A stretch of DNA of 16,575 nucleotides from Roseobacter denitrificans OCh 114 (lineage in GTDB: Bacteria > Pseudomonadota > Alphaproteobacteria > Rhodobacterales > Rhodobacteraceae): contig NC_008388.1 in NCBI RefSeq assembly GCF_000014045.1, positions 1 through 16,575 on the forward strand, written 5' to 3'. How positions within the stretch are numbered: position 1 is the stretch's first letter; each line of letters starts with the position of its first letter. The position numbers were made by a program, and so were the translations under genes. Below the pieces are notes generated by a model. That model did not search any database. It saw only the letters and a list, made by a program, of their open reading frames with translations, and had not been told where the DNA came from. This document shows, one piece after another, positions 591 through 16,575 of this stretch.

Positions 591-616
591 ACCGTCCACC
601 ATCAGCACATCACCGC

Positions 617-1168: not shown

Positions 1169-1188
1169 AGCGGTGTGCTTTCAGGTTA

Positions 1189-2841: not shown

Positions 2842-3137
2842 CAAGAGGCACCGTCATCGCTTGGGGCCGGGGAGGGCGTCTCCCATTCCGCGAAGGCTTT
2901 GCGGTCCTGTTCGCGGGAGAGGTTACGGATCAGCCGGTCGAGCATCGCGGTAGCGCTGGAATCCCGTTCCGCCAGGTCCATGAGCGCCCCGCCCAGGATC
3001 ACCTTGCGCCGTGTATCCAGCTTGCGCTGTCTGGTGGCTTCCCTGTTCTTCAGTGCCTGCAGGCGGGCCTTGGCCTGGGCGTAGCGTTTCTCGGCGCGTT
3101 CAAGCTCAGTCTCAGCCAATTCGGGAATCCACTTCAA
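2841..3137 (-). CDS. traD: TraD-like conjugal transfer accessory protein
   Basis: A 98-residue, highly charged protein resembling the small TraD proteins of Ti-type and other alphaproteobacterial plasmids (not the F-plasmid ATPase of the same name). The N-terminal 40 residues are a probable coiled coil (ELERAEKRYAQAKARLQAL). The segment LDTRRKVILGGALMDLA (about 41-57) is the family hallmark. Family members are thought to be relaxosome or oriT accessory proteins. The gene starts about 70 bp from the oriT core and reads away from it, and its stop overlaps the traG ATG. The start is probably TTG at 3137 with a poor Shine-Dalgarno. A second in-frame TTG lies a few codons inside, and a stop lies upstream, so the start is uncertain by a few residues. 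Confidence 0.85.
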   Translation of the reverse strand: MKWIPELAETELERAEKRYAQAKARLQALKNREATRQRKLDTRRKVILGGALMDLAERDSSATAMLDRLIRNLSREQDRKAFAEWETPSPAPSDDGAS

Positions 3138-3147
3138 AGAGGGCAGG

Positions 3148-3204
3148 TGTAAAGGTTAGACTTGTCACAACCAGCGATAGCGCTTACCCGTAGGCCTGTA
3201 AAGG
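3148..3204. repeat. Short repeats flanking the oriT core
   Basis: TGTAAAGG occurs twice in the same orientation (3148-3155 and 3197-3204). CCGTAGG (3188-3194) is mirrored by CCTACGG at 3233-3239 across the nick region, and AGCG/CGCT arms lie at 3173-3184. They may be binding sites for TraD or another accessory protein, since they sit between the traD start and the nick region. They are short, so some could be chance. Confidence 0.4.
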
Positions 3205-3206
3205 AC

Positions 3207-3252
3207 AAGGGCGCACTTATGCAAACTCTTCACCTACGGTTCCGAGATTTGC
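3207..3252 (-). other. oriT: Origin of transfer (oriT), MobQ/RSF1010 type
   Basis: On the minus strand the sequence reads GCAAATCTC, a loop of 15 nt, GAGTTTGC, then ATAAGTGCGCCCTTG. The core (plus 3207-3220) matches from memory the RSF1010 nick region (GTAAATGCGCCCT) and the Ti-plasmid one (TATAATTGCGCCCTTGG). An imperfect inverted repeat (3221-3228 with 3244-3252, one unpaired base) directly abuts it on the 5' side, as in RSF1010. It lies between the traD-traG operon and a MobA/MobL relaxase gene, where an oriT is expected. By analogy the transferred strand would enter with traD-traG first and the relaxase gene last. Confidence 0.87.
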
Positions 3253-3716
3253 GTGCGATCTCCTTGAGGCAGGGCCTCAGCCGATGGCGAACTCCGTCCG
3301 ACGCGATGCGCGCCGGAATGGGAGGTGCTTTCGCCCTCCCACACCCTCCAGAACCAACCTCGGCGGTTGGATCGCGTCCCGCAATATTGCGCCAGCGTGT
3401 CGCCCGATGCCCCTTTATGGGGGCCGGTCTGCCGCTGGCGTCTCCCTTGCGGGAGGTATCGCGCCCAGGTGCTGACGCCCCTTCGCGATACCGGGTTTGC
3501 CCCCGGCAAACCGCCAGTGATCTGTCCCCATGTCCCGCCCCCCATGAGGCTGGGGATTTGGGGGCAGATCACTGGCAAGCCCGCGCCTCAGAGGTGCGTC
3601 GCGCCCCTTCAACCGGGCTGTCTTTCCCCCTCCGGCCCCAGCGTTCTGGGGCGCGGGCCTTCGGGAAAAAGACGGCTGACCCGGTGGCCCATGTTCGGGC
3701 ATGGGCCGGAGTCAGC
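3244..3716. repeat. Dense array of abutting inverted repeats between oriT and the relaxase gene
   Basis: About 470 bp without a credible gene, nearly tiled by hairpins. Arms are at 3244/3262 (GAGAT), 3265-3279 (TGAGGC/GCCTCA), 3320-3340 (GGGAGG/CCTCCC), 3354-3370 (CCAACC/GGTTGG) and 3380-3391 (CGCAATATTGCG). Next come 3390-3397 with 3433-3440 (CGCCAGCG/CGCTGGCG) enclosing 3409-3424 (GCCCC/GGGGC), then 3442-3455 (CTCCC/GGGAG), 3455-3463 with 3484-3492 (GGTATCGCG/CGCGATACC) and 3494-3512 (GGTTTGCC/GGCAAACC). The last are 3513-3529 with 3560-3576 (16 of 17 pairs), 3578-3583 with 3614-3619, 3635-3652 (GCCCCAG/CTGGGGC) and 3675-3716. It could be a folded single-stranded DNA element, a structured RNA leader of the relaxase mRNA, or a cluster of palindromic insertions. 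Confidence 0.75.
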
Positions 3717-3760
3717 AGCGGCGCGCATGATTATTCGCATCACGGGCGAGGGGAGGGCGT

Positions 3761-5044
3761 ATGGCCAGCTACCACCTCTCCGTGAAGACGATCAAACGCA
3801 GCGCCGGGCGCTCCGCCACGGCGGCGGCCGCCTACCGTGTCGGCGAGCGCATCGAGTGCCAGCGGGAAGGCCGTGTCCACGATTACACCCGCAAGAAAGG
3901 CATCGAGGAGACCTTCATCCTGACCCCGAAGGACGCGCCGGATTGGGCCACGGACCGGTCCCGTCTCTGGAACGAGGTCGAGGCCAGCGAGACCCGCCGC
4001 AACTCCGTCACCGCCCGTGAGTGGGAGCTGGCCTTGCCGTCCGAGATCAGCGCCGAGGACCGGTCCCAGATCACCCGCGACTTTGCCCAGGAGCTGGTCA
4101 GCCGCTACGGCGTGGCCGTCGATGTTGCGATCCATGCACCGCACCGCGAGGGCGACCAGCGGAACCACCATGCTCACGTTCTGACCAGCACCCGGAAGCT
4201 GGAACCCGAGGGCTTCACGGCCAAGACGCGCGTACTCGACTCCGCCAAGACCGGTGGCGTCGAGATCGAGCAAATGCGTGGCCTCTGGGCCGAGTTGCAG
4301 AACCGCGCCCTGGAGCGGGCAGGGGAGGTGGAGCGCGTCGATCACCGGTCGCTCGAAGCGCAGCGGGAAGCGGCGCTGGAGCGAGGCGATCAACTCTCCG
4401 CCGAGGAGCTGGACCGCGATCCGGAGCTGAAGCTGGGGCCAGCCGCCAACTCCATGGAACGCCGGGCCAAGGCGATGGCCGAGCGGGAGGGGCGGGAATA
4501 TGTCCCCGTCACAGAGCGCGGCGCGGTTGTTCATGCCGCCCGCCAGGCACGCGCCGCTTTCCGCGAAATGCGTGAACGCTTGGACATCGCGCGGGAGACT
4601 TATGGGTCCGAACGCGAGGCAGGGCAGGGGCGTGTGTCTGCCGGTCTGGCGGCACTACGGGCTGCAACCACAAAAGATCGCAACCGCACCCCGGATGACT
4701 TCCGGGAACGCCTGGCGCGTGTCGTGGGTCATTCACGGGATCAGGACGACACGCCGAAACCGGAAAGTCGCAATTATGCGCGGGAGCGGCTGAAAGAGAT
4801 CATGGAGAAAGACGCGGGCCGGGACGGCCAGTCGGCGGTTCAAAAGCTTGATGGTCACAGCGAGTATGGTTTGGGCGAGGACACCGGGCGCGAGGCGCGC
4901 AAGCCGTCTGTCAACGAGCGCCTGAAGAACGTGTTGAACAAGCCGCGTGAGAAGCTGGAGATCGAGGACGAGCGCGATCAGGAGAAGGATCAGGAGGTCG
5001 AGAAGGACCGGGACATCGACCGCGATCCAGGCCTCAGTCACTGA
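3761..5044 (+). CDS. mobA: MobA/MobL (MobQ) family relaxase
   Basis: DNA-nicking transesterase that cuts oriT, stays attached to the 5' end and pilots the strand into the recipient. The N-terminus starts MASYHLSVKT, and Tyr25 (in AAAAYRVGE) sits where RSF1010 MobA has its catalytic tyrosine. The metal-binding histidines are in motif III, HAPHREGDQRNHHAHV (125-140). The nuclease domain takes roughly the first 220 residues. The rest is charged and helical and ends in a Glu/Asp/Arg-rich low-complexity tail (about 400-425). No primase or helicase domain is visible, so at 427 residues it is a relaxase-only version. A strong Shine-Dalgarno (GAGGGGAGGG, 3748-3757) fixes the ATG at 3761. The gene is GC-rich and its end overlaps the end of the opposite-strand gene by 7 bp. 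Confidence 0.95.
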   Translation: MASYHLSVKTIKRSAGRSATAAAAYRVGERIECQREGRVHDYTRKKGIEETFILTPKDAPDWATDRSRLWNEVEASETRRNSVTAREWELALPSEISAEDRSQITRDFAQELVSRYGVAVDVAIHAPHREGDQRNHHAHVLTSTRKLEPEGFTAKTRVLDSAKTGGVEIEQMRGLWAELQNRALERAGEVERVDHRSLEAQREAALERGDQLSAEELDRDPELKLGPAANSMERRAKAMAEREGREYVPVTERGAVVHAARQARAAFREMRERLDIARETYGSEREAGQGRVSAGLAALRAATTKDRNRTPDDFRERLARVVGHSRDQDDTPKPESRNYARERLKEIMEKDAGRDGQSAVQKLDGHSEYGLGEDTGREARKPSVNERLKNVLNKPREKLEIEDERDQEKDQEVEKDRDIDRDPGLSH

Positions 5045-5385
5045 GCAAGGCGATGTGAAGTCGTTTCTCCGCTCTTCATGGGAATGCTCGCTTGAGAGAA
5101 CCCGACACCAACCAGAAAGGAGATCACGCCAGTCGCGGTTTTGAACTCGCGAACCTTGATGGCATTCTGCGTCAGGCGCGTCCTAGCGGTGACAAGGATT
5201 TTCTCGTTTCCGTCCTTGCCGACAGTCCGCATGATCCACAGGCCGTACCAGCTTGGGCCTTTACGTTCAGGGTCTGTCTTGCAAAGCACTTCGACCGAAT
5301 GGCCCTGCTCGGCGAGCGCACGAAGACCTTGTTCCGTAGTCACATTTGGTTCGAGTTTGGGTTCAAAGTTCAACGCGCTCTCCAA
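5038..5385 (-). CDS. Small protein of unknown function, convergent with the relaxase gene
   Basis: Not assigned to a family with confidence. The product is about 115 residues, soluble, with an N-terminal stretch VTTEQGLRALAEQGHSVEVL, then GPSWYGLWIMRTVGKDGNEK and LVTARTRLTQNAIKVREFKT. It ends with a hydrophobic GVISFLVGVGFSQASIPM. No signal peptide or membrane helix is clear. The start is uncertain: the most upstream candidate is TTG at 5385, with AAGGTGAAG about 13 nt upstream and an in-frame stop just before it. A second TTG lies four codons in. A plausible promoter lies 50-77 bp upstream. It converges on the relaxase gene with a 7-bp overlap of the stop regions, so antisense interplay at the 3' ends is possible. 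The coding call rests on a long open frame and protein-like composition. Confidence 0.62.
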   Translation of the reverse strand: MESALNFEPKLEPNVTTEQGLRALAEQGHSVEVLCKTDPERKGPSWYGLWIMRTVGKDGNEKILVTARTRLTQNAIKVREFKTATGVISFLVGVGFSQASIPMKSGETTSHRLAQ

Positions 5386-5434
5386 GTCGATGCAGGAGCT
5401 TCACCTTGTGGAGCAACGCTGCCCTTCTATCAAT

Positions 5435-5462
5435 AGTATATTAATGGCGAATGAGAAATCAA
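5435..5462 (-). promoter_or_regulatory. Probable sigma70-type promoter for the 5038-5385 gene
   Basis: On the minus strand TTGATT (5462-5457) and TATACT (5440-5435) are separated by 16 bp, close to the vegetative consensus. The -10 lies about 50 bp before the probable TTG start. Called by eye only. Confidence 0.45.
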
Positions 5463-5587
5463 ATCGTCGTCGGCTTCGAGAACTCGGAATGAACGGCTCA
5501 TATTTCCATCTTGACGCATATCTATCGGTACCATCAACTTTGATGGGAGCCTAGGATCACCCTAGCGCAAAGTTTTTTATGAAAGCA

Positions 5588-5602
5588 GCCAAAATATTTG
5601 GC
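5588..5602. promoter_or_regulatory. Inverted repeat upstream of the exported-protein genes, possible operator
   Basis: GCCAAA-ATA-TTTGGC is a perfect 6-bp-arm inverted repeat ending 20 bp before the ATG of the gene at 5623, just ahead of its AGGAGG. That position suits a repressor site or an mRNA hairpin limiting ribosome access. No binding protein can be named. The rest of the divergent intergenic region (5386-5622) shows only weak promoter-like matches in this direction. Confidence 0.4.
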
Positions 5603-5622
5603 CTTGGTGCAGGAGGATTTTG

Positions 5623-7875
5623 ATGAGGACCGCGTTTTTCGGACTGAGCTTATTTTTATTTTGGTCGCAGCAATCAATAGCACAAGAGAATGCGCTCGAC
5701 ATAGAGGTTTTGGCCACGAGTCAGCAGAATTATGAAGTTGATCTTCCTATACGCAGTGGTGAAGAAATTCGAGATTTGACGATCTATGGACACACATTCG
5801 CTGAATGCGTTGGAAGTGATCAGGCGACCTCACTGGGTTTGCAATTGCCAAGTCAGCTTCAACCCATCCGGTATGGTGTACTTGCTTCATTAGGGCTTAA
5901 CCTAACCCCAGAAAAAGTAAGTAAAACTGTACTGCGTCGCCTCGACTCGGAGCGGACCTTTTACGTGGCATATGATCTATTGGCTGACGACAGGGCACGC
6001 CACTCTTTCCATGTCTTCGAAAGAAGTGAACCGCCGTTCACGGATCAAGACACTATCTCAACCTCTGTGCTATTACGATTTGCGTGTGGTTATGATCGTC
6101 GCAATGAAGACTTTTATCTAGCTCTTTGGAAGAACTCGTTTGAGAGAGACGGAGGGTACGACGACAAAATATCCATCCGTTACGCCTTCTCGAACTGGTC
6201 GGTATTTGGCGGTATTCAGCTACCTAATTCACCATCGATGGTTGATGTTCACGGTAACATTATTCTTCAGCACCTTAGCGCCGACATAGATGATTACATA
6301 GATGGTTTGGAGAAAATCTCAGAATACTGGCGGTATGTTGGTAGGAGGCAGCTGTATAGCTGGGACGATTTTCTCTTTTTAGAACAAGTTGCTTCAGGGC
6401 CATTTTTTGAAGCAGTAGATGCCAACGTTGTTTTCGAGCGTCCTGGCTCACCGGAAGCAGAGACGGCTGTGCAATCGGAATTTGCGCGGCTTGATGCCAT
6501 CGCCGCGACCATTGTTGAAAATGCACGGACGACAGTTTCTGTACTGGAAAGCCTTCAAAGCGATACTCGCCCGGCAACAGAATTCTTGGATGATTTGCCC
6601 AGGCGTAAGGCCGAAGCTGCTAGTGAAACAGCTTCTGAAACTTGGCAATCATTGCACTCAAACCTGTCGGGGCTAGGGCCAGACGAGGAGTCTGCACTCT
6701 ATGATAGGCTCGCTGATTATCAGAGGACCATCAATAATCGAGACAACAGGGAAAGAGTTTCGGTCGAGGAGCAGTTTGAACGCTGGTCTGGTTCGCAGAA
6801 ACGCTCATTCGAAGAGCTCCGGATTCTTTATGATGTGAGAGTACTAGAAAGAGAGATGGGCCAGAGGGTTCAGGCGCTTAGAGAAGAGGCGCAACAAACG
6901 AACTTTGATAATCGCTGGCGGCTGCTGCAGAGGAAGGTCGATATTGTTGGGAGCTGCTTTGCTGTATTGAGTGCTTCCGGTGAGGTTTCGCAGGAGAACA
7001 TCACGGTGCTTCGAGCGCTCTTGAATTCGTTTGAAGAGAATGTTCGTGGCGGTGTGTTCCTGCTTGGATCGACCTTTGAGGTCGAGAACTATCGAGACTG
7101 TGCTCTAAGCCTTGAACTTGGCTACGAACATAGGCTGGCAGATATTCAACGGGAGACCCTTCTTCCCTTTGATCGCGCGATGTTTCTCAGACTGAATGAA
7201 CTGATACTTGCCCGCGAGAGGTACTTAACGGGGCTTGCTGACTTTGACGAAATACCAGGTGGGCTTTCAAGCCATCTTCAAACCCTTAGGCGTGAGCGCG
7301 GGCTTGCTTTTGCTTTGCGCAGTATGCTGACGCCTCTTGTCTACGAACTCTATTGGGGACGAACAGTTGAAGCGAGTCAGACATTCAATCGCACGAACAT
7401 TCTACTGCCATCTGCTACTCACGATCTCAGAGCCAATGAGATAGATGTTTTCTTTCCAGAGACATCTTCAGTCAGTACTGGGCCAAATCGCGAAACGCTG
7501 ATCGTTCAGCCGACATTTTCTCGCAGAGTGTCGGCGGTAGCTGATGAAAGACAAGCCCTGGCGTTTCGTGAAGTCTGGCGTGAGAGGTCAGGCTCTCCCG
7601 TTCGAGTCCAAATTCGTGACCTACCAATGCCCCTGGCAAGATGCCCAATTTTTCTCACTGACGTAGAGCTAGGAGCGGTGCAAGGTACAGTGGTCGTCGC
7701 ACTGGAATGGGATCATCTCTGCAGAACCGCAGAAGAGGCTGGCTTGCCATTCGTAGACTTCGTCAGCCTACCCTACGATGAACTCAGCGAAATTGATCTT
7801 TCTGAGGTCGCCCATGAAGTTGGTGATTGGATAGATTCTCAAGATGGTCAGGTTGTCCATGTTCAGATCGATTAG
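5623..7875 (+). CDS. Large exported protein of unknown function
   Basis: I do not recognise it. The ATG at 5623 is fixed by AGGAGG at 5611-5616; a TTG one codon earlier is the longest alternative. Residues 1-20 form a Sec signal peptide (MRTAFFGLSLFLF core, cleavage likely after SIA), so the mature 730-residue protein should be periplasmic or secreted. The mature part has six cysteines in three sequence-adjacent pairs: about 62 and 155, 445 and 493, 674 and 700. This suggests three disulfide-bonded modules. Residues about 280-440 are charged and helical, probably coiled coil, rich in Glu/Arg. No catalytic motif or membrane segment beyond the signal is seen. Its 3' end overlaps the next exported-protein gene, which implies co-expression. 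GC is clearly lower than in the transfer genes, suggesting separate acquisition. Confidence 0.85.
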   Translation: MRTAFFGLSLFLFWSQQSIAQENALDIEVLATSQQNYEVDLPIRSGEEIRDLTIYGHTFAECVGSDQATSLGLQLPSQLQPIRYGVLASLGLNLTPEKVSKTVLRRLDSERTFYVAYDLLADDRARHSFHVFERSEPPFTDQDTISTSVLLRFACGYDRRNEDFYLALWKNSFERDGGYDDKISIRYAFSNWSVFGGIQLPNSPSMVDVHGNIILQHLSADIDDYIDGLEKISEYWRYVGRRQLYSWDDFLFLEQVASGPFFEAVDANVVFERPGSPEAETAVQSEFARLDAIAATIVENARTTVSVLESLQSDTRPATEFLDDLPRRKAEAASETASETWQSLHSNLSGLGPDEESALYDRLADYQRTINNRDNRERVSVEEQFERWSGSQKRSFEELRILYDVRVLEREMGQRVQALREEAQQTNFDNRWRLLQRKVDIVGSCFAVLSASGEVSQENITVLRALLNSFEENVRGGVFLLGSTFEVENYRDCALSLELGYEHRLADIQRETLLPFDRAMFLRLNELILARERYLTGLADFDEIPGGLSSHLQTLRRERGLAFALRSMLTPLVYELYWGRTVEASQTFNRTNILLPSATHDLRANEIDVFFPETSSVSTGPNRETLIVQPTFSRRVSAVADERQALAFREVWRERSGSPVRVQIRDLPMPLARCPIFLTDVELGAVQGTVVVALEWDHLCRTAEEAGLPFVDFVSLPYDELSEIDLSEVAHEVGDWIDSQDGQVVHVQID

Positions 7876-8755
7876 CATAGCTGTTGTCGCCACAATTGGG
7901 GTATTCGAGCGAGCACAAGCAGATCCCCATCTTTACTGTGCAATAAATGACACGCCGTACTGTGGTACGCCGAGTGAGGCCATGCGTGCATACAACGAAC
8001 TGCACCAGAGAACGAGTATTGTTTCGGACCTCAACTTTGAACTTATGGAGGCGCGGACTGACTTTCTTAGGGACCTAATTGATGCTCGTACAAACGAGTT
8101 CTGGCTTTCCGAATGGTTGCCAGACCAAGCACGGTTCATCCAAGCAAACATAACGTTCTATCAGTACTTCAAGCCAGGTTCGTATTTTGATCCTAACTCG
8201 GTCGATCCGTTGGCCGACTCCAGCGTTACTGACCGGTTTGGGAACGCTGCCTTGATCCATGCAAACGCTGAGCTGGCTTGGGGAAATGCTAACGTATTCG
8301 GAAGCCGAATGGGTAGTTGGGTTGCGGGAGGAGCGGAACTTCTCCAACGATCAAGGGAACTCTATGGCTCAATTACAGGTGATGGGGAGCTTAGCTCTCG
8401 AACACGTGATTATTTCCAAGACATGTTTTGGTCTCCAGGGGAGGCCTTCTCGAGGGCCTTTGACAACGATCCCTTTGACTACCTGATAAATGAGGAAATT
8501 GGCAGATTTCATGAGTTTGAAAATCGCTTCTATGCTGATCAGCTCATTAGCCAGTGGACGTCTCACTTTGAGTCACCGTACTCGACACTCGGAGTGGATT
8601 ACGGGTTTGACGATCCAGGCTTTGGAGTTCCGTATTACCCGCTAGACGAAGGATATTTTCCAGATAGTGACCTATTCTTCGATGATTTTTATGATTTTCC
8701 TTACGGAATAGAAGATGATCTGCCCGATTGGGAGTTGGAACTACAATACCTCTAA
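7844..8755 (+). CDS. Second exported protein of unknown function, overlapping the first
   Basis: Not recognised. The start is ATG 7844, overlapping the upstream gene by 32 bp, or ATG 7859 (MFRSISIAVV), which has AGG about 7 nt upstream. Either gives a signal peptide ending near AQA at residue 26 (numbered from 7844), so the product is exported. Mature Cys32 and Cys40 (YCAINDTPYCG) could form a disulfide. The middle (about 60-230) is mostly helical, with many aromatic residues. The last 60 residues are strikingly rich in Asp, Glu, Phe, Tyr and Pro (for example DLFFDDFYDFPYG), strongly acidic and probably an extended binding tail. Tight overlap with the 750-residue exported protein suggests the two form a complex or act in one pathway. 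A terminator-like hairpin follows at 8781-8813. Confidence 0.82.
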   Translation: MVRLSMFRSISIAVVATIGVFERAQADPHLYCAINDTPYCGTPSEAMRAYNELHQRTSIVSDLNFELMEARTDFLRDLIDARTNEFWLSEWLPDQARFIQANITFYQYFKPGSYFDPNSVDPLADSSVTDRFGNAALIHANAELAWGNANVFGSRMGSWVAGGAELLQRSRELYGSITGDGELSSRTRDYFQDMFWSPGEAFSRAFDNDPFDYLINEEIGRFHEFENRFYADQLISQWTSHFESPYSTLGVDYGFDDPGFGVPYYPLDEGYFPDSDLFFDDFYDFPYGIEDDLPDWELELQYL

Positions 8756-8780
8756 TGTTCCTTGGGAGGGTGGAAAGGTC

Positions 8781-8813
8781 CACTGGCGGCAAAAACGGTC
8801 GTTATCGCCGGTG
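8781..8813. terminator. Hairpin between convergent genes, possible bidirectional terminator
   Basis: CACTGGCG (8781-8788) pairs with CGCCGGTG (8806-8813) with one G-T pair, around a loop holding the near-palindrome AACGGTCGTT. It lies 26 bp after the stop at 8755 and before the end of the opposite gene at 8866. There is no U-run, so factor-independent termination is doubtful. The loop shares 14 bases with the resolvase upstream region. Confidence 0.45.
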
Positions 8814-8865
8814 ACAGAAACGATTGAGTTTTGGCATGCCCCCGCCCGCGACTACTCTGTTTTCA

Positions 8866-9456
8866 CTAACGATCAGCTTCAGAAAGTCCAAGCACGTCAC
8901 GCCCGAACAACGACGAAAGAGGCTCCTTTATGAGTACGCCGCTCGGGTTTTCGACATGCTGGGTCAGTCCTACATCAGGGAGGCTTAGAATGCCTATTGC
9001 GCCCAAGGTAAGCCCGACTTCGAACTCACACATTCTAAGTGCCTCATTCATGCTTAATAGATTGGTCCCTTGTCGGTCTTGTGAAACGATCTCGCTGACG
9101 TACTGATCAAAAGCGGATGTACTACTCTCCGGACTCGCTGCTTCTCGATTTGACTCAGGTTCCGATAGCTCTGTGACTGCGCGCTCTATGCACTTGCTTG
9201 CTAGATGAGAGCTAATTTTCGAGCGAGTTTCTTCTGAAATCTCCTCTATCCCAGACATTTGATCTTGGAGGAATTCCTCCACGAGCACTAGGGCTAAGCC
9301 CTTGTCGAATGGAGGGTCGGACTCCTCTTGAAGAAGAGCCGAAAGGTTTTGAGGGAACCGTACTATGTTCTCAAGCGTGTCAGGGTTGGTCACTGTGACC
9401 ACAACACCAAACACGGCCCCTAGTGCGCCAAAGATATATGCTGCTCTCTCAGACAT
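8866..9456 (-). CDS. Single-pass membrane protein of unknown function
   Basis: Not recognised. The 196-residue product begins MSERAAYIFGALGAVFGVVV. One hydrophobic segment (about 5-24) lacks a clear cleavage site, so it is probably an N-terminal anchor. A hydrophilic, acidic domain follows, with helical stretches such as LVLVEEFLQDQMSGIEEIS, a Ser/Glu-rich linker near 100-115 and a more hydrophobic C-terminal third (VGLTLGAIGILSLPD). Two cysteines are seen, in SKCIER and LRMCEF. The start at 9456 has only a weak Shine-Dalgarno. It converges with the exported-protein operon and diverges from the resolvase. It may be a lone cargo gene. No function can be assigned. Confidence 0.7.
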   Translation of the reverse strand: MSERAAYIFGALGAVFGVVVTVTNPDTLENIVRFPQNLSALLQEESDPPFDKGLALVLVEEFLQDQMSGIEEISEETRSKISSHLASKCIERAVTELSEPESNREAASPESSTSAFDQYVSEIVSQDRQGTNLLSMNEALRMCEFEVGLTLGAIGILSLPDVGLTQHVENPSGVLIKEPLSSLFGRDVLGLSEADR

Positions 9457-9579
9457 CTGTAACCCAAACTGAACCCTTCGTATGCTTATGCCGCTAATAG
9501 TGAATTAGCTCCAGCCTTCTTTGCCCGTCTCAGTGTATGCAACAATTATATGGTAGCCACAGATGGGAAATGTTCTGTC

Positions 9580-9752
9580 GGCTCCGGAGCCCATGCGGTT
9601 AACTGAACAGCGTATGACACAAACCTACTGACAAAACCCATGGGTCAAAAACGGTCGTTTTTGTCCGGATGCCCTGCCCTACCCAGGATCAACCGCTTAG
9701 CTATGACAAAAACTCCCGGCAAAACCTTTGCGGTTTTGGCAGGTTTTTGTCA
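9580..9752. other. Palindrome cluster upstream of the resolvase gene, probable res site and operator
   Basis: Ahead of the serine resolvase are GGCTCCGGAGCC (9580-9591, perfect), ACCCATGGGT (9636-9645), CAAAAACG-GT-CGTTTTTG (9646-9663), and a large two-level inverted repeat. The large repeat's outer arms are TGACAAAAAC (9704-9713) and GTTTTTGTCA (9743-9752). Its inner arms are GGCAAAACC (9718-9726) and GGTTTTGGC (9732-9740). Several share the element ACAAAA/TTTTGT. Resolvases of this family act at multi-subsite res sites just upstream of their own gene and repress it, and these palindromes have that position. Which one is the crossover site cannot be told by eye. The wider gap 9457-9761 also holds GCTAAT/ATTAGC at 9493-9509. 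Confidence 0.6.
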
Positions 9753-9761
9753 CACTGAGAC

Positions 9762-10301
9762 ATGATCATCGGATATGCCCGCGTCAGCACTGACGACCAG
9801 AACCTGGATTCACAGACGGATGCCCTGTCGGCAGCCGGTGTCGAGAAGGTCTTCGCAGACAAGATCAGCGGATCGAGGCGCGCCCGCCCAGAACTGGACA
9901 GAATGCTGGAGCAGCTCCGCGACGGCGACGTTGTAGCTGTCACGAAGTATGACCGCCTGGCGCGATCTCTGAAGGACCTCTTGGAGATCGTAGAGGCGAT
10001 CGGGGAGCGCGGTGCCGGCTTCCGGTCCCTGGCCGAAGACATCGACACGACAACGCCGGCAGGCCGCCTAGTGTTTCACGTGTTCGCGTCCATCGCCCAA
10101 TTTGAGCGCGAGCGGATTTCGGAACGGACCAGGGAAGGGCTAACTTCAGCCCGCAAGCGAGGTCGAGTCGGTGGCAGGCCCCCTGCCCTTTCAGCAGCAC
10201 AGAAGAAGGAAGTGAGACGGATGCGAGATGAAGAGCAGCGCGCCATTGCAGAGATTGCACGGTTGTTCAAAGTTAGCGAGCGGACAGTGCGGCGCGCGTG
10301 A
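9762..10301 (+). CDS. Serine recombinase, resolvase/invertase family
   Basis: Site-specific recombinase that most likely resolves plasmid multimers. The catalytic N-terminal domain starts MIIGYARVSTDDQNLDSQ, with nucleophile Ser9 and Arg7. TKYDRLARS (61-69) supplies further active-site arginines, and AGRLVFHVFASIAQFERERI (100-119) leads into helix E. A hinge with GGRPPALS (137-144) precedes a helix-turn-helix, AIAEIARLFKVSERTVRR (161-178). At 179 residues it is a full-length small resolvase, with no transposase or terminal inverted repeat nearby. It is therefore probably a plasmid maintenance gene and not part of an intact transposon. No strong Shine-Dalgarno is seen. The large palindrome ending 9 bp before the ATG suggests autoregulation. 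An invertase role cannot be excluded. Confidence 0.93.
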   Translation: MIIGYARVSTDDQNLDSQTDALSAAGVEKVFADKISGSRRARPELDRMLEQLRDGDVVAVTKYDRLARSLKDLLEIVEAIGERGAGFRSLAEDIDTTTPAGRLVFHVFASIAQFERERISERTREGLTSARKRGRVGGRPPALSAAQKKEVRRMRDEEQRAIAEIARLFKVSERTVRRA

Positions 10302-10361
10302 GAGGTTTGGAAGTAGTCGGAGACGATAAACGAAACAGGTGTGGGAGCGTTTGCCGATGTA

Positions 10362-10377
10362 GCGGCGTTTCCGCCGC
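10362..10377. terminator. GC-rich hairpin after the resolvase gene
   Basis: GCGGCG (10362-10367) and CGCCGC (10372-10377) form a perfect 6-bp stem with a TTTC loop, 60 bp after the resolvase stop and about 85 bp before the next likely start codon. No T-run follows, so termination is only possible. The rest of 10302-10463 shows no convincing promoter. Confidence 0.4.
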
Positions 10378-10463
10378 GAAATCAAATGGTGCAGAAGACG
10401 GGCACAGCTAAAGGTGATAGCTTCCGTCTATGCCAGCGAACGCTGATCGAAAGACAACAAATA

Positions 10464-11681
10464 ATGACGACATCTATTGACCACACACTTCTGCATGACC
10501 AACGGGTCAACTGCACTTCTATTATGACGGCGATGACCGTTGGCGATTACATTGAGCTGGTGGATTCCGCCTATCAAAAACGTGGTGGCTTGGCTCATCA
10601 ACGGGATGCACTCAAGACTACGACGGCCCGAAGAATTCGTTCTCGGATGGTCGATGACATCGTAAAAGGGGCGGTTTTGCCGCCGGTTGTCGTCGGCGTC
10701 GTCGCCAACAATGACTTTATCACGTCTATCCAAGAAGATTCGACTCCCGACACGGTTGCGGCAATCAGTAGTGATTATTCTGAGGCCCTTTCAATTATTG
10801 ACGGTATGCAGCGTACAACTGCGCTGTTGGAGGCTTTGGACCAGGACCGCGATAGTGTCGAAGAGCGCCCTATGCGGGTCGAGTTCTGGATCGCTGACAC
10901 CACGGAAAGCCTCATATACAGAATGCTGGTTCTTAACACAGGGCAAGTGCCTTGGAACCTTAGCCGCCAGCTTCAAGTCGTCTACGCGCCGTTGATCGAG
11001 GAAATGAAAGGTCAGGTCGATTTTGAGCGCGTGTTAGACACAAATGCAGGCGAAAGAAGATCGAAAGCGGGAGAGTATGCTCCAGATAATTTGGTTGAGC
11101 TTTACATCGCCTTCGGCCTTCGAAAGACCGACATAGATACTCAAGAGACTTTGGCGGACGAGTTTTCGCGGCTTGATATGACTGAGGCGCTCTCGTCACA
11201 CCAGTATCGCGACTTTTTCTATCCGGTCGTTCAAATGATGGTCGACCTAGACAAGGCCTTCTCCAGGTTCGATGCAGACATCGAAGCTGCTATCGCGGCT
11301 CAGGTTGATGACACTGCCCAAAAATTGAAAAAGGGGCGCAGCATCTTCGATAGCAAACCAGCGCGGATCGGTTTTGTCGTTGCTGCAGCAACAACAATTC
11401 TTGGCCGTGTTGGTATGGAACAAGATGACGATCCCGATGCAACGAATGCAAAGTTGGCCGGAATTCAGAGCAGTCTTAAGGCGCTGATAGACAAGCTAAA
11501 CGGTTACGATAGCGATGAACTTCAAACGTTCTTAAAGCTGGATGTTCTTTCAGAGCGGCTTTACGGACAGAAGCGATCCGCGGTTGGTCGCTATGAAAGG
11601 GCGTTTTTCGACTCTGCCTTCAAGGTCCTGTTTGAAGAGGACTTCGAGGTACCAAGTATGGAGCCATGTTGGCGGGCCTAG
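10464..11681 (+). CDS. DGQHR/DUF262-like protein (ParB/sulfiredoxin-fold superfamily), putative defence component
   Basis: Resembles the DGQHR and DUF262 group, whose members occur in defence systems such as the nucleotide-dependent GmrSD restriction enzymes and DndB. Key features of the 405-residue protein are LPPVVVGVV (72-80), the signature IIDGMQRTTALLEA (111-124, Asp113-Gly114-Met115-Gln116-Arg117) and LVLNTGQVPWNLSRQ (155-169), which resembles the Asn-x-Gly element of DUF262. The rest is helical, ending with RSAVGRYERAFFDSAFKVLF. No HNH or DUF1524 nuclease end is visible, so any nuclease activity may come from its partner. I chose ATG 10464 because the frame upstream to ATG 10341 crosses a GC hairpin and looks non-coding. 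Its stop overlaps the start of the HEPN-like gene, implying translational coupling. The superfamily assignment is by motif; the function is inference. Confidence 0.78.
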   Translation: MTTSIDHTLLHDQRVNCTSIMTAMTVGDYIELVDSAYQKRGGLAHQRDALKTTTARRIRSRMVDDIVKGAVLPPVVVGVVANNDFITSIQEDSTPDTVAAISSDYSEALSIIDGMQRTTALLEALDQDRDSVEERPMRVEFWIADTTESLIYRMLVLNTGQVPWNLSRQLQVVYAPLIEEMKGQVDFERVLDTNAGERRSKAGEYAPDNLVELYIAFGLRKTDIDTQETLADEFSRLDMTEALSSHQYRDFFYPVVQMMVDLDKAFSRFDADIEAAIAAQVDDTAQKLKKGRSIFDSKPARIGFVVAAATTILGRVGMEQDDDPDATNAKLAGIQSSLKALIDKLNGYDSDELQTFLKLDVLSERLYGQKRSAVGRYERAFFDSAFKVLFEEDFEVPSMEPCWRA

Positions 11682-12763
11682 GCATGGCCAATCGTTCACG
11701 AATTCAGATGAGCCAACAGATTTTCGAGCGCTTAATTGCGCATGCAAGTGATGACGGCGTTGTCATACCTGACACCGACCAAAAGAGATGGATAAGCAGG
11801 CTTAATAACGCTGACGCGTCACTGATGGCTGAGGCCGACGTCTTTGGTCATCAACAGATCACCAGACAGATCAGGGCCATCTACTTCGAGCATGACGCTG
11901 TGCGCTACTTTGCTGTCTTGGGAATCGGTGAGGCAGAAAGTGTTCCGGATGGATTGGCGCCGACCGAACTCACTCCGGGAACTCTTTCTGTTGCACTAAC
12001 GCAATCGGACATCCAGCCGAGTGCAAAGGGTTTAGAAATTCTGGAAGCCATTGGCGACTTGCATGGAGGAGTTGAAGGCTTCGACGGATACGAACTTTCC
12101 GCTATCGCAGAACTTTTCCCAAGCGTTGAGATGTTTGAGGCGGATCAGAATTACGAGTATACCTCAAATGTGGTCCGAGTGCTTGGGGCACTAATCGCAC
12201 GGTCCTACAGCGATGGTCCGATAGCGCCCTCAAACATAACGTTGAACAAGGTCTCGGACCTTTTTCAGTCTGGCTCTGAGCACGTTCCATTCGAAAACGT
12301 TTTACAGGGCATGTTGTCGATTTCTTGGGGCGGTTTCTTTTTGGAGCTCTATCGAGCGATCGAACAGCTCTATGCGGTTCCCAGGCTCGCTGCGTTGGTC
12401 GAGGCGTGGCCAACCTCCCTGCCCTACCGCAGCCTAGCTGACTTGTTGGAGAGCCACCTTGCTTGGCGCCCAAAAGAAGACGACGCGCTAGCCAAAATTA
12501 TTGCTGAATGCGACGACACGATAGTCGCCCCACTGAGAGAAAGTTTCTCAGGTCACCGTGATGGCGATCAAGAGATTACCCCAGAAAAAGTCGCGGCAGA
12601 CATATACAAAGTCCGAAACAGCTTGGTTCATTTCCGCGCAGCTTTAGGAACAGTTCAGCGCACCAATGAAGAGTGGGATGATATGATTTCGGCAATGCTC
12701 GATTTCGTCAAAGACGTTTACCAGCGCCATGGTGCCCGCTTCAACTTGGAGCCAGAAGCGTAG
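11666..12763 (+). CDS. Putative HEPN-domain protein (RxxxxH), partner of the DGQHR-like protein
   Basis: A 365-residue protein with a C-terminal region that fits HEPN ribonucleases. FFLELYRAIEQLYAVPRL (224-241) looks like the first helix. KVRNSLVHFR (316-325) carries Arg317-Asn318-Ser-Leu-Val-His322, the Rx4H motif that forms the RNase active site of toxic HEPN proteins. The N-terminal about 200 residues (RSRIQMSQQIFERLIAH, then a probable mixed alpha/beta sensor region) are not recognised. The gene overlaps the upstream stop by 16 bp. ATG 11666 has GGAG very close, and ATG 11684 is an alternative, so the start is uncertain by six codons. As a downstream partner of a DGQHR/DUF262-like protein beside a restriction-modification operon, an abortive-infection effector is the natural guess. 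The HEPN call comes from one motif and helix pattern. Confidence 0.72.
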   Translation: MLAGLGMANRSRIQMSQQIFERLIAHASDDGVVIPDTDQKRWISRLNNADASLMAEADVFGHQQITRQIRAIYFEHDAVRYFAVLGIGEAESVPDGLAPTELTPGTLSVALTQSDIQPSAKGLEILEAIGDLHGGVEGFDGYELSAIAELFPSVEMFEADQNYEYTSNVVRVLGALIARSYSDGPIAPSNITLNKVSDLFQSGSEHVPFENVLQGMLSISWGGFFLELYRAIEQLYAVPRLAALVEAWPTSLPYRSLADLLESHLAWRPKEDDALAKIIAECDDTIVAPLRESFSGHRDGDQEITPEKVAADIYKVRNSLVHFRAALGTVQRTNEEWDDMISAMLDFVKDVYQRHGARFNLEPEA

Positions 12764-12769
12764 TCAATC

Positions 12770-13630
12770 CTAGGATCGACGGATGGGGGTAGGTTTTGAC
12801 TCTCTGCGGACAATGCCATCCCTGACAATCTTTGTTGTTCTTACCAAATCGACCCCATTCATGGCAGCTTCGAAATGGACTTTGTTCAGTTCGTTTTCAT
12901 CGCCCCCGAAGCAACGATGCATTGCATCAAGAATACCAACGTCGTTGATGTTCTGCGGACGTGGGGTCGGATTGTTCCGAGGACTCGGGATCGTGCCAGG
13001 AAAGAGATAGATGCATGGCGGCGGTAGTCTATATGGACCCACTTCAGTAATGCGGTCTTCTCTACCAGCGATTTTTGGGCAGACGCGTGCTGCGGTTCCG
13101 CACAGCCAGTCCCAGACGACCAAGCCGTCCACCCGCTTTTCTTCAGCAATAATATCTGCGGAGAAGCGAGTGTGGATGCCAGACCAGACGTTGTGTCGAG
13201 GATCGGCACCCTTATTCTGGCATACACTCCACACGATGAACTCGTTTGCGTGAGGTGGTCGAGCAGAGATGTTCGTGTTGTTCCCGTCGAGGCAGCCCTT
13301 TAATTCGATAGCCGCAATTTTTCCATCGTTCAGCGTAACTGAGTAGTCGTGCCTATTGGAACCACCGGCTTCGATCCATTCTTGAATGAAACCCCCATCC
13401 TGCATGTGATTCAGAATGTGCTTAACAAAGGTCTTCTTTTCCCCCATGGACGCAGAGATTTGACCACGCACCCGCTGGATCGAACCTTCAAATATCCCGC
13501 TATCGTAGAAGTCTTGCTCGGTCATCCCAAAGGGATCGAGACGATGCGCTTGTGTCTTCAAGACCTCTGAGAATTGCTCGATGCGCTCTGTAAGCTGAGG
13601 GTCTTTCTGACACGGTATCTCGTCGTTCAT
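12770..13630 (-). CDS. Putative type II restriction endonuclease, PD-(D/E)XK-like
   Basis: Probable restriction partner of the upstream methyltransferase. The 286-residue protein has a core GGSNRHDYSV (89-98) followed by KIAAIELKGC (104-113). Asp95 with Glu109-x-Lys111 matches the D-X(10-20)-(D/E)XK metal-binding site of many restriction nucleases. WSVCQNKGADPRHNVWSGIH (134-153) and DGLVVWDWLCGTAARVCP (168-185) follow, and the last 70 residues are Pro/Arg-rich with a basic tail. Its ATG overlaps the methyltransferase stop as ATGA (13630-13627), a coupling that would keep methylase made first. It ends only 6 bp from the end of the convergent HEPN-like gene. Recognition sequence cannot be read from the protein. 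The nuclease call depends on motif plus context. Confidence 0.78.
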   Translation of the reverse strand: MNDEIPCQKDPQLTERIEQFSEVLKTQAHRLDPFGMTEQDFYDSGIFEGSIQRVRGQISASMGEKKTFVKHILNHMQDGGFIQEWIEAGGSNRHDYSVTLNDGKIAAIELKGCLDGNNTNISARPPHANEFIVWSVCQNKGADPRHNVWSGIHTRFSADIIAEEKRVDGLVVWDWLCGTAARVCPKIAGREDRITEVGPYRLPPPCIYLFPGTIPSPRNNPTPRPQNINDVGILDAMHRCFGGDENELNKVHFEAAMNGVDLVRTTKIVRDGIVRRESKPTPIRRS

Positions 13631-14784
13631 GTTGCCTTCGCTGTGGGCGCCTTTGCTGGTGGCATTGAGGCGCGCGCGCCCTTAACCACCGGTTCCAAAA
13701 TGTGTTTTGCAATGTATCGCACAACTGGAACAGCAACGCCATCACCAGTCAAATGATAGGCTTCGTTATATGCCTGTGGCAGCTCGTAGCTGTCGGGTAA
13801 GCCCATCAAGCGGGCCGTCTCACGTGTGGAGATCAGCCGTGAACGGATACGCACGCCATCCACCACAAGAATGAGCTGGCGAGACGACCCGCCTGCGGGT
13901 GTTCTTAGGCACCCTGCAACGTCATCAAAGCGCACTTCCGCGCGTTGAACCTTGATGCCGTGGTGATAGCGCGTGCGTTTGTAGACACCACCAACCATAA
14001 CCACACCAGCAGCCTTAGCGGTTTCGACTTTGGCGAGATTCACATCGCTCATCATGGACAACAGCGCCCGCGTTTCAGCCGCTGTATGCCATTTCACTGA
14101 TGCGGGTTTTGCCTCGATTACATCAGCGAAACGCATCTCGCGCTTTGGAGGCTTCGGCATATGCCACCATAGCCAAGACTGCTTTAGATGTTCCGGGAGT
14201 TGGCTATACGCTTTCTTCAACGCGGCCGTGTGCCACGGTGCCGTTGGCTCCGGACCCGTTTTCAACGGTTCCACGTTCTTCTCGATAGCGATCACAAATA
14301 GCCTTGGCCGGGATTGCGGAACGAAATGTGAGGCGTCGGCGATGAAAGCGCCATACCGATAGCCGAGGTTGTCCAGCGCTTCGCAGATGGCGGTGAAATC
14401 CGCACCCTTATGTGAGGTCAGAGTTCCAACAACATTCTCAACTGCAATCACGGTTGGGGCACGTCCGGCTATCTTCAGTTCTTCGAGTTGTGCAATGAAA
14501 GGCCAGAAGGTCCCCGAGCGGTCGCCGCGTAACCCCGCCCCACCACCCGCTAGAGAAAGGTCTTGGCAGGGGAAGGAACCCCACACGAGGTCAGCGTGTC
14601 CCGGAAGATCATCGAGACCAATGTTGCGGATGTCGTCCACGATCATCTCGCCGTCGCCCCAGTTCTTCTTGTAAGTTGCGCCCTTCTTCCGGTCGAAGTC
14701 GTTGGCGAACTCGCATTTCCAGCCTTCGCCCAGTCCGGCTCGCGCCATACCTCCGCCAGCAAAAAATTCGTAGAATTTAAACAT
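13627..14784 (-). CDS. DNA (cytosine-5) methyltransferase of a type II restriction-modification system
   Basis: Transfers a methyl group from S-adenosylmethionine to C5 of cytosine in a recognition site. Ordered motifs are FYEFFAGGGMARAGL (I, 4-18), GSFPCQDLS (IV, 69-77, catalytic Cys73), AVENVVG (VI, 114-120), QSRPRLFVIAI (VIII, 157-167), RTPAGGSSRQ (IX, 294-303) and GDGVAVPVVRYIA (X, 347-359). The target recognition region lies between about 185 and 290. Length (385 residues) is normal and all catalytic elements are present. I chose ATG 14784, with AGGG 6 nt upstream and motif I beginning at residue 4. A TTG at 14811 would add nine residues. It is coupled to the nuclease gene downstream. 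Two tiny overlapping ORFs in its leader may influence translation. Confidence 0.95.
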   Translation of the reverse strand: MFKFYEFFAGGGMARAGLGEGWKCEFANDFDRKKGATYKKNWGDGEMIVDDIRNIGLDDLPGHADLVWGSFPCQDLSLAGGGAGLRGDRSGTFWPFIAQLEELKIAGRAPTVIAVENVVGTLTSHKGADFTAICEALDNLGYRYGAFIADASHFVPQSRPRLFVIAIEKNVEPLKTGPEPTAPWHTAALKKAYSQLPEHLKQSWLWWHMPKPPKREMRFADVIEAKPASVKWHTAAETRALLSMMSDVNLAKVETAKAAGVVMVGGVYKRTRYHHGIKVQRAEVRFDDVAGCLRTPAGGSSRQLILVVDGVRIRSRLISTRETARLMGLPDSYELPQAYNEAYHLTGDGVAVPVVRYIAKHILEPVVKGARASMPPAKAPTAKAT

Positions 14785-14838
14785 TGGATTCCCTGTATTG
14801 CTGACGGGCAAGTCCGCATTTTCTCATTTTGTTCTCAT
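14777..14838 (-). promoter_or_regulatory. Two tiny overlapping leader ORFs running into the methyltransferase start
   Basis: An ATG at 14838 encodes only M-R-T-K, and its TGA overlaps an ATG at 14827. That second frame encodes 16 residues (MRKCGLARQQYRESNV), and its TAA (14779-14777) lies just inside the methyltransferase gene, after its ATG. The chain could couple or throttle translation of the methyltransferase. Neither has a strong Shine-Dalgarno, so chance is quite possible. Confidence 0.3.
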
Positions 14839-14889
14839 CTAGCACATGATTTCTTTCGAGGCCATGAATCTGTTCAAGGCCCTGATAAC

Positions 14890-15168
14890 TCACGGCTTGT
14901 TCTTGTATATAGACCACATCTCTTCAATTAGCTGACCTTGCGTGATTCCGAGACGTTCGGCTTCAGCAGCGATTTCCTGTCCCACCGTAGGGAAAACCTT
15001 TGGATGCAGCTGATGGGTTCGAGGGCTAGGTTTGCGCCCAGGCTTTTTGCGAGGCGTCCGGTCGAGAAACCCCCTCGCCTCTCCAACTTCGTCCACGCGC
15101 CGGACTTCTTCAACGGTCGTCCCTTTCGGACGAGCTTTCAGTCCCGCAAGCCTATTTGAGCCGGTCAT
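14890..15168 (-). CDS. Small ParA partner, putative centromere-binding protein
   Basis: A 92-residue basic protein whose gene overlaps the parA end by 17 bp, with a good GGAGG 6 nt before its ATG. The N-terminal half is Arg/Lys-rich and probably disordered (GRKPSPRTHQLHPKVF). The C-terminal third (VGQEIAAEAERLGITQGQLIEEMWSIY) looks like the helices of a ribbon-helix-helix or similar small DNA-binding fold. In type Ib partition cassettes the gene right after a short ParA encodes such a protein, which binds the centromere and stimulates the ATPase. It probably binds the 18-bp array at 15837-15926. Family membership is not certain from sequence, so the function rests mainly on position and size. 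Confidence 0.75.
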   Translation of the reverse strand: MTGSNRLAGLKARPKGTTVEEVRRVDEVGEARGFLDRTPRKKPGRKPSPRTHQLHPKVFPTVGQEIAAEAERLGITQGQLIEEMWSIYKNKP

Positions 15169-15820
15169 ATACAGCCTCCGTGAATGCCTCAGCGTTTGCC
15201 AACGCCTTGTCTACCTTACCGCCCGTGACCATTTCGGGGTCATTCATCATCGCTGTCAGGTCGCCCCCGTAAGCGAAGAGTTCGGAGAATGCCGCACGGG
15301 CCACCAGTGACGGTTCGATTACATCGATCCCTGCCCCACTAAGCTGTCCCTCTAGCTCCTTCTGAACGCGGCTTTTGACAGCAGCGCTGGTCTTGGTCAG
15401 CACCACAGCATGCCGAATTGAGCGCCCAAGCGCTTCTTCCTCTTCACGAACCAGCGCCAGTGCTTCGGAGCCGATTTCAGCGTCGAGCGCTGTCGGCTGC
15501 ATCGGGACTATCACCAGGTCGGCCTGGGAGATCGCGCGACTAACAAGCTGGGACGCAACCCCTTCCAGGTCCACGATGACGATCTTGCCGTCACCATCCG
15601 CGTTCCGAATGGTGGGAACGATTTCTGAACGGCCAATCTCACTCTTGAGGGTCACGCCACCGGGCATGCCATGCGAAGCCCACCTGGTCAGAGACTTGTT
15701 CGGGTCACAGTCCAGCACCGTGACATCCGCTCCCATGCGGGCGAATTCAGACGCTAGCAGTACAGCGCAAGTTGATTTGCCTACCCCGCCTTTGGGGCTT
15801 GCCATGACGATAACGGGCAT
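15152..15820 (-). CDS. parA: ParA-type partition ATPase (short, type Ib-like)
   Basis: Walker-type ATPase that distributes plasmid copies over the nucleoid. MPVIVMASPKGGVGKST carries the deviant Walker A motif (K10-GGVGKS/T) at the very N-terminus. VLDCDPNKSL (36-44) is motif A' and KIVIVDLEG (79-87) is Walker B. LVIVPMQPTALDAE (102-115) is the next conserved block. At 222 residues with no N-terminal helix-turn-helix, it is of the small type Ib class, where autoregulation usually comes from the small partner and not from ParA itself. AGGA lies about 8 nt before the ATG. It follows repA on the same strand, separated by the 18-bp repeat array, and overlaps the partner gene downstream. Confidence 0.95.
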   Translation of the reverse strand: MPVIVMASPKGGVGKSTCAVLLASEFARMGADVTVLDCDPNKSLTRWASHGMPGGVTLKSEIGRSEIVPTIRNADGDGKIVIVDLEGVASQLVSRAISQADLVIVPMQPTALDAEIGSEALALVREEEEALGRSIRHAVVLTKTSAAVKSRVQKELEGQLSGAGIDVIEPSLVARAAFSELFAYGGDLTAMMNDPEMVTGGKVDKALANAEAFTEAVYDRLK

Positions 15821-15836
15821 TGCTCAATCCTGCCAT

Positions 15837-15926
15837 TTTGTTGTTACCGGATTTATATCTCGCACCGGAAAAATATCCAATACCTGTTTTAAATCCATAA
15901 CCGGATTTATTTGTATTACCGGTTTT
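15837..15926. repeat. Five tandem 18-bp repeats between repA and parA, probable centromere/operator
   Basis: On the minus strand the five contiguous units read AAAACCGGTAATACAAAT, AAATCCGGTTATGGATTT, AAAACAGGTATTGGATAT, TTTTCCGGTGCGAGATAT and AAATCCGGTAACAACAAA (15926 down to 15837). The core is A-A-x-C-C-G-G-T, damaged in unit 3 (ACAGGT). The array fills the whole repA-parA gap except a few bases, so it also overlaps the parA promoter. This is where type Ib systems keep a partition site that doubles as operator, and the small partner is the likely binder. Confidence 0.82.
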
Positions 15927-15931
15927 TAACC

Positions 15932-16575
15932 TTAAGGCCTTCCACGCTTTTCGAACCATTTTCGGCAAAACCCTACAAAGGCTCGATCAGCGTTGCGAGG
16001 CGGCTCCACACACCAGTCGCGCCACTCGCGTTCAAGAAAGCGTACATCCCATCCGGGAGCCGCATGGCGTGCTTCTTCGTAGGTATCCGACTGCAAAGGA
16101 GGAATGCTGCCTTCAATGAGCGGGGCAGGAGACATCGTGCCGCGATTGGTGAAAACCACCATGTCGGCTTCATCCTCGAAGGTAACATGGTAATCCGGCA
16201 AATGGTCGTGCTCTGCGAGTTGCCGGATCATCTGCCGGAAGCGCTTCTGCGGACTTTGAGAACCAGTCTTGAGAAGAAGTTTGGCCAGCGTGATACGCCA
16301 AGACTTCTGTTGGCCACAGTGTTTTCGAGCAATTTCGTATACCCGCCGTTCAATGGGCTTGCGCAGACGGAAGTAGTCCCTATGCAGAGTCAGAACTTCT
16401 TCGTTCCGGATCGCGTTGAAGACCCAATCCGACAGCTTCACTTCGCACCACAGCAGGCGACCGTCGAGACCATGCTTGCGGCGGATTGAGGAAGCGTCGA
16501 TCAGGCCGAACCCATCGACCTGTTCTTCATCCCCGGTCACAATATTCGTCCTGATCCGGGTTCCTTCAAGGCGGT
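15932..16575 (-). CDS. repA: Replication initiator RepA (RPA family), C-terminal part, continuous with 1-391
   Basis: The remaining 213 codons and TAA stop (15934-15932) of the initiator that starts at 391. Taken alone this stretch would be miscalled as a 202-residue protein from a GTG at 16540. The frame stays open upstream to the window end and joins the N-terminal part as LLDAL-D-RLEGTRIRTNI. Visible segments include DGFGLIDASSI, WVFNAIRNEEVLTLHRDYF, RLRKPIERRVYEIARKHCG and the C-terminal RAFVGFCRKWFEKRGRP, all consistent with the winged-helix DNA-binding RPA replication proteins. The gene ends a few bases before the 18-bp repeat array, with parA next on the same strand, the usual replication-partition arrangement of small alphaproteobacterial plasmids. 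Confidence 0.93.
   Translation of the reverse strand, partial: RLEGTRIRTNIVTGDEEQVDGFGLIDASSIRRKHGLDGRLLWCEVKLSDWVFNAIRNEEVLTLHRDYFRLRKPIERRVYEIARKHCGQQKSWRITLAKLLLKTGSQSPQKRFRQMIRQLAEHDHLPDYHVTFEDEADMVVFTNRGTMSPAPLIEGSIPPLQSDTYEEARHAAPGWDVRFLEREWRDWCVEPPRNADRAFVGFCRKWFEKRGRP

Follow-up and report, generated by a model that had tools for sequence, protein, structure and literature searches.

A divergent, plasmid-borne Dazbog pair with a candidate HEPN-type RNase, linked to a cytosine methylation restriction-modification system in Roseobacter denitrificans OCh 114

We analysed a stretch of 16,575 bases from Roseobacter denitrificans OCh 114 (the window), which is the entire contig NC_008388.1 of a 4.33 Mb genome in five contigs, and found that a gene pair on its + strand is the defence system Dazbog, in a divergent, plasmid-borne form linked to a restriction-modification (R-M) system. 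The gene dzbA (10464..11681) encodes a DUF262/ParB-Srx-fold protein of 405 aa, and dzbB (11684..12763) encodes a candidate HEPN-type RNase. The best explanation, to which we give a probability of roughly 70%, is that DzbA is a sensor that activates DzbB as an RNase, and that this plasmid-borne, divergent Dazbog divides labour with the R-M system beside it.

The first-pass annotation of this region could match the pair to no named system, a statement overturned by PADLOC, which identifies it as Dazbog. The first protein matched PADLOC DzbA (PDLC03835, E 2.9e-52) over residues 10-404 of 405, and the second matched PADLOC DzbB (PDLC03836, E 0.0013) over residues 225-336 in its C-terminal part, near the detection limit of the model. 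Neither protein matched any other PADLOC model at E <= 1. Both models also picked up pairs from Bacillus and Sporosarcina, with E 7.4e-4 and 4.2e-6 for DzbB. Furthermore, when the profile of the 29 DzbB rows in the window's group was compared with that of six DzbB from cyanobacteria, Bacteroidota and Bacillota, among them the Bacillus DzbB, the match reached E 1.1e-60 over 347 columns. Given that both proteins match the PADLOC models and that the homology of DzbB to the group containing Bacillus DzbB spans its full length, we identify the pair as Dazbog. The weak and partial DzbB model would explain why annotation tools can miss it. The model gave no match in 200 genomes of the phylum, the window's DzbB itself included; it is too insensitive for surveys, and we therefore used an alignment of DzbA.

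The scan with this alignment yielded 98 loci, comprising 80 genome loci (the best 80 of 94) and 18 on viral contigs; L048 and L092 are identical DNA, which leaves 97 distinct loci. The phyla with DzbA include Pseudomonadota, Actinomycetota, Bacillota, Bacteroidota, Cyanobacteriota and Myxococcota. PHROG 27603 matches DzbA at 7.8e-135, and a scan of INPHARED phages with DzbA gave no match. Co-occurrence of the two genes, which the first-pass annotation had set as a test, was found in 92% (90/98) of the DzbA loci. Three of the eight loci without a DzbB match end at a contig edge (L071, L079, L101), and five have no DzbB (L022, L025, L027, L042, L080). We considered an effector swap in these five and do not claim one, as the downstream genes look housekeeping or unrelated by eye. 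Conversely, dzbB without dzbA was sought in viral contigs, where all five distinct contigs found through DzbB were also in the DzbA list. In L034, L036, L059, L062 and L074 a whole DzbA match stands beside a shortened or split DzbB, and in L040 it is DzbA that is split; this tally is biased, since the search ran by DzbA, and may include sequencing errors.

The first-pass annotation described the first protein as a DUF262-like sensor with no visible HNH nuclease, and this description stands. Its two motifs, IIDGMQRTTALLEA and LVLNTGQVPWNLSRQ, lie where it placed them, both within the open reading frame (ORF) from 10464, and Pfam found no HNH or other nuclease domain in this sensor-like DUF262/ParB-fold protein. 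The Pfam matches of DzbA were GmrSD_N at 1.4e-4 (22.4 bits, cut-off 33.2) and DndB at 0.014, both below the Pfam cut-offs, and no DUF1524/HNH match was found in DzbA or DzbB at E <= 1. The predicted fold of DzbA is nearest to ParB, Noc, Srx, BrxU and SspE, and the ParB/Srx/BrxU/SspE fold fills rows 1-21 of the VIA-align output. Since a Foldseek search against the PDB gave no match at E <= 0.001 for either model, the fold claims for both proteins are based on the rows from VIA-align and on how consistent these are. Residues D113 to R117 (DGMQR, 10800-10814) are invariant in all 26 aligned rows, namely the window and 25 sequences picked from the best 120 of 1948 matches. We place DzbA among the ParB/Srx-fold DUF262 proteins (GmrSD, BrxU, SspE), but without a match to the HNH DNase domain found in those. 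The part of PMC10952713 that treats DUF262 reports its presence in Dazbog, a loss of defence when it was mutated or deleted, and a likely role in the recognition of methylated DNA.

The motif KVRNSLVHFR, noted in the first pass as having HEPN RNase spacing, was confirmed in the second ORF as an HEPN-type RxxxxH. With residues counted from the ATG at 11666, R317 (12614-12616), N318 and H322 (12629-12631) are invariant in 29/29 rows, that is, the window and 28 sequences picked from 42 matches. In the wider set, the Arg, the His and an upstream acidic residue, E233 (12362-12364), are kept in 92/92 loci whose match reaches the motif, for the Arg and the His far beyond chance, at a mean identity of 21% over 55 rows; this count holds for loci found by a DzbB profile, the same that gave 90/98, built from those 55 rows, 54 of them already seen with the motif, and without the profile the motif was seen in 84/98. 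The residue after the motif Arg is N in 83, H in 7 and C in 2 of the 92 loci. As given in the part of PMC3710099 on HEPN RNases, the criteria are an Rx4-6H motif whose Arg is followed by a polar residue, and an upstream motif in an Ex3[KR] form. RNSLVH in DzbB fits the former, and E233 is a second conserved acidic residue upstream, for which the Glu was scored, its Ex3[KR] context aside.

Fold comparisons for DzbB were fainter than the motif. The HEPN bundle proposed in the first pass was recovered tentatively: motif and helix layout suggest an HEPN-like C-terminal bundle in the DzbB model, with a weak fold score. The window's DzbB matched no HEPN model of Pfam, and HEPN_Apea matched 10 of 55 DzbB relatives at E <= 0.1 (best 0.0015). 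Against solved structures, the DzbB profile had a single weak match, BzdO (E 0.6), which we rejected as unrelated, and hhalign detected no similarity between DzbB and one RnlA sequence (probability 0.6%, E 0.09). Judged from its sequence, DzbB looks like an HEPN-type RNase candidate, with a presumed active site of R317-N-x3-H322 and E233. An enlarged DzbB of about 640-660 aa, with a partly repeated profile match and the motif RNSNVH, was observed in L072, L073 and L098. No paper describing DzbB as an HEPN RNase was found among literature listings, and the assignment may stand in the original Dazbog description or in the trigger-screen paper.

Downstream of dzbB, the window encodes a type II restriction enzyme of 286 aa (12770..13630, - strand; PADLOC REase_II PDLC03501, 2.6e-127) and a C-5 cytosine (m5C) methyltransferase (13627..14784, - strand; PF00145, 6.8e-49). 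The restriction enzyme gene is convergent with dzbB, and the first-pass count of 6 bp between the stops (12763 and 12770) was right. Both R-M genes accompany Dazbog elsewhere as well, in one of two arrangements. The convergent one was found in the window, L104, L105 and L125, and also in L010, where a stretch of about 1.2 kb with Vsr and GIY-YIG genes intervenes, and the co-directional order dzbA-dzbB-methylase-restriction enzyme in L002, L003, L004 and L086; L005 carries the methylase with a GIY-YIG protein in place of the restriction enzyme. All ten rows are beside an m5C methylase and form one clade (support 96/93) on a tree of 97 DzbA, which left out L040, L055, L069 and L079 (short or split DzbA) and one of the identical L048/L092. 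The window's restriction enzyme was not found in the flanks of other Dazbog loci, some of these flanks being short, and the best match of its methylase there was 3e-27.

We also asked how often each partner occurs in related genomes. DzbA was found in 4/390 genomes of the order (two full-length, two partial and weak) and 2/385 of the class, and each of the three distinct full-length DzbA has this restriction enzyme close by. The restriction enzyme was found in 12/390 order genomes (eight full-length, with at least 59% identity) and 2/385 class genomes, and three of nine distinct full-length enzymes adjoin Dazbog. Among 17 plasmid records matching the enzyme, two are the Sulfitobacter plasmids described below; ten of the other 15 were examined and had no DzbA within the stretch around the enzyme. 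The R-M partners of the window's Dazbog clade do not form one clade on the methylase or the restriction enzyme tree, with four changes on each, of which 4 and 3 are forced by well-supported branches. Repeated independent recruitment of R-M is not established, because the branching order of the partners roughly follows the DzbA tree; judged from these trees, one old Dazbog/R-M association with later losses of Dazbog would fit too.

Beyond this clade, Dazbog lies directly beside other m5C R-M systems of HpaII type (L031, L065), Eco29kI type (L016) and NaeI type (L032). L068 has a weak BsaWI-like restriction enzyme match below the cut-off, and L023 a convergent m5C methylase without a recognised restriction enzyme. 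Vsr genes (PF03852) are near Dazbog and an m5C methylase in L031, L068, L016 and L010. With these six outside loci and the ten clade rows marked as m5C-linked, the DzbA tree needs five changes to account for the linkage, and well-supported branches force every one of them. In flanks of up to 6 kb a side, the 97 distinct loci have an m5C methylase in 16 cases, a CcrM-type N6 methylase in one and an HsdM-type in two; profiles were built from methylases of related genomes, those for N6 from CcrM-like and HsdM-like sequences, so that other N6 families may be missed. A separate N6 motif scan found only 1/97. Twelve of the 16 m5C loci are the adjacent cases given above. Of the remaining four, L038 (at the locus edge) and L048 have the methylase at a distance of 4 to 6 kb, and L096 and L097 come from viral contigs and are nearly the same sequence; L096 has a PF00145 gene beside dzbA on the other strand, unlabelled on the tree. 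N6 genes are not rarer than m5C genes in related genomes, since 19 of these gave 15 matches for PF00145 and 30 and 32 for the N6 families PF01555 and PF02384 (many of the 32 weak).

In the preferred mechanism, DzbA would most likely bind a nucleotide through its DGMQR loop, recognise foreign or modified DNA, and then activate or release DzbB. DzbB would act as a metal-independent HEPN-type RNase with R317-N-x3-H322 and E233 as its active site, cutting host or phage RNA so that the infected cell stops; the abortive-infection design suggested in the first pass is plausible. The adjacent m5C type II R-M system would restrict unmodified DNA, and Dazbog may deal with phages whose own methylation lets them evade it. 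Its own methylase could be tolerated in either of two ways: DzbA does not respond to the cognate mark, or it is held back by that mark. We hold a narrower version as tentative, a possibility at clearly less than even odds, in which DzbA reads cytosine methylation in the CG-containing context of the linked methylase and unleashes the RNase upon wrong methylation or a disabled R-M system, the window's clade being the hard-wired four-gene form. We take the recognition sites of HpaII, NaeI, Eco29kI and BsaWI all to contain CG. As for published work, the portion of PMC12409349 on Dazbog reports that methylases can activate it by an unclear mechanism, and what PMC12926258 says of it gives the mechanism as unknown.

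Several counts weigh against a general R-M partnership. Outside the clade, 81 of 91 distinct loci have no m5C methylase in the examined flanks. A type II restriction enzyme is the nearest upstream neighbour in at least 4/67 cases (HpaII 2, Eco29kI 1, NaeI 1; from 25 of 75 families), and an m5C methylase the nearest downstream neighbour in at least 1/63 (from 25 of 80 families). These lists left out six clade members among the 98 loci and L092, L095, L097 and L101, and one near-copy was dropped from each (67 of 68 and 63 of 64 scanned). Since defence genes tend to gather together and R-M genes move between genomes, the linkage could be plain defence-island clustering, uninformative on function. 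The 81 loci agree with this, and the counts of neighbouring methylases cover Dazbog flanks only. However, nearby methylases are mostly m5C (16 versus 3) although N6 families outnumber m5C in the 19 related genomes, several loci have a restriction enzyme or methylase gene directly adjoining dzbA or dzbB in the same orientation, and within the window's clade the link persists through both gene orders. We regard clustering alone as rather doubtful.

A guard or addiction module is unlikely, in our view. Here DzbA would keep DzbB inactive for as long as the linked R-M functions, and the RNase would be released once phage anti-restriction proteins act or plasmid methylation is lost, much as PrrC reportedly guards EcoprrI. 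The methylase beside all ten clade DzbA and the 16 m5C against 3 N6 flanks are in line with such a role, as is the relative of this R-M on a Paracoccus plasmid that is followed by an annotated RnlAB, another HEPN toxin pair. The RNase of PrrC is itself listed as an HEPN relative in the RNase portion of PMC3710099. However, the same 81 outside loci have no m5C methylase at hand, the restriction enzyme family differs between clades, so that no single protein could be the guarded partner, and the Dazbog activators named in PMC12409349, as far as that account goes, are methylases. Least probable, and very unlikely, is type IV-like direct restriction, in which DzbAB cuts or blocks modified phage DNA and the helical domain of DzbB binds nucleic acid without cutting RNA. 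Neither protein has a DUF1524/HNH match, and the retention of R, H and E at 21% mean identity fits a catalytic site. The sensor-activated RNase beside R-M remains our preferred reading.

The window is a circular plasmid with transfer genes, because a replication-protein ORF spans its two ends once joined, these ends adjoin in a circular Sulfitobacter dubius plasmid (L104, 15.1 kb; positions 14678 and 14679), and a type IV secretion system coupling protein, a MobA/MobL relaxase and a ParA-like ATPase are encoded (Pfam). Positions 460-5355 and 9648-16575 align to the S. dubius plasmid at 82% and 91% identity, and the Sulfitobacter sp. THAF37 plasmid (L105, 17.2 kb) aligns in like manner. Between them, 5356-9647 is variable cargo without a match in either plasmid; its two + strand ORFs (751 and 303 aa) have signal-like starts by eye and no significant Pfam match. 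A serine resolvase/recombinase gene (9762..10301, + strand; PF00239, 1.3e-46) lies just 5' of dzbA, and the block resolvase-dzbA-dzbB-restriction enzyme-methylase is also present in both Sulfitobacter plasmids. The THAF37 plasmid has a second annotated DUF262 protein besides Dazbog (L105 11595-13352). In the Paracoccus tegillarcae plasmid pBM152 (L141 2872-7503), the R-M relative is followed by a recombinase and the annotated RnlA-RnlB.

Some gene starts needed a choice. The longest dzbA ORF reads from GTG 10341, which the S. dubius annotation uses, and the start at 10464 is backed by most aligned homologues and the THAF37 annotation. The methyltransferase ORF is open to TTG 14811, and the start at 14784 gives 1158 bp, the length annotated in S. 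dubius. The 16-bp overlap of dzbA and dzbB reported in the first pass holds with ATG 11666, whereas the favoured ATG 11684 gives a 2-bp gap. This second ATG is the likely start, as it corresponds to the first residue of many DzbB homologues and to the start annotated in S. dubius, and the overlap is likely a start-codon artefact.

Taken together, this is a known system in a divergent form, and two points about it deserve testing: the assignment of DzbB to the HEPN RNases, and the link of Dazbog with m5C systems. With a conserved active site of HEPN type, the Dazbog effector would have a concrete, mutable chemistry, and the m5C R-M pairing raises a self/non-self question, namely how a presumably methylation-reactive sensor lives beside its own methylase. 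The window pair shares with described Dazbog the two-gene order, the full-length DzbA profile, the C-terminal DzbB profile and the full-length homology to the set with Bacillus DzbB, and differs in being divergent, plasmid-borne and linked to an m5C type II R-M, with a DzbB near the PADLOC detection limit. With GmrSD, BrxU and SspE (DUF262 + DUF1524), DzbA shares the ParB/Srx-fold DUF262 domain and the DG-x-Q-R loop, a family motif in the DUF262 part of PMC10952713, whereas the window pair has no DUF1524/HNH match and its presumed effector is a separate HEPN-type protein. Dazbog beside R-M would, by analogy, parallel BrxU beside BREX, where a member of the same DUF262 family is described as complementing a methylation-based system (PMC10952713, in part). 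RnlA-RnlB (RNase LS) and other HEPN toxins resemble DzbB in the probable HEPN-like C-terminal bundle of its model, the RxxxxH motif and a role against phage; DzbB showed no sequence similarity to the one RnlA compared, and its partner is the ParB-fold DzbA, not an RnlB-type antitoxin. PD-T4-2, likened here by its published description only, is given with both DUF262 and HEPN in that same part of PMC10952713, and is hence a precedent for the combination.
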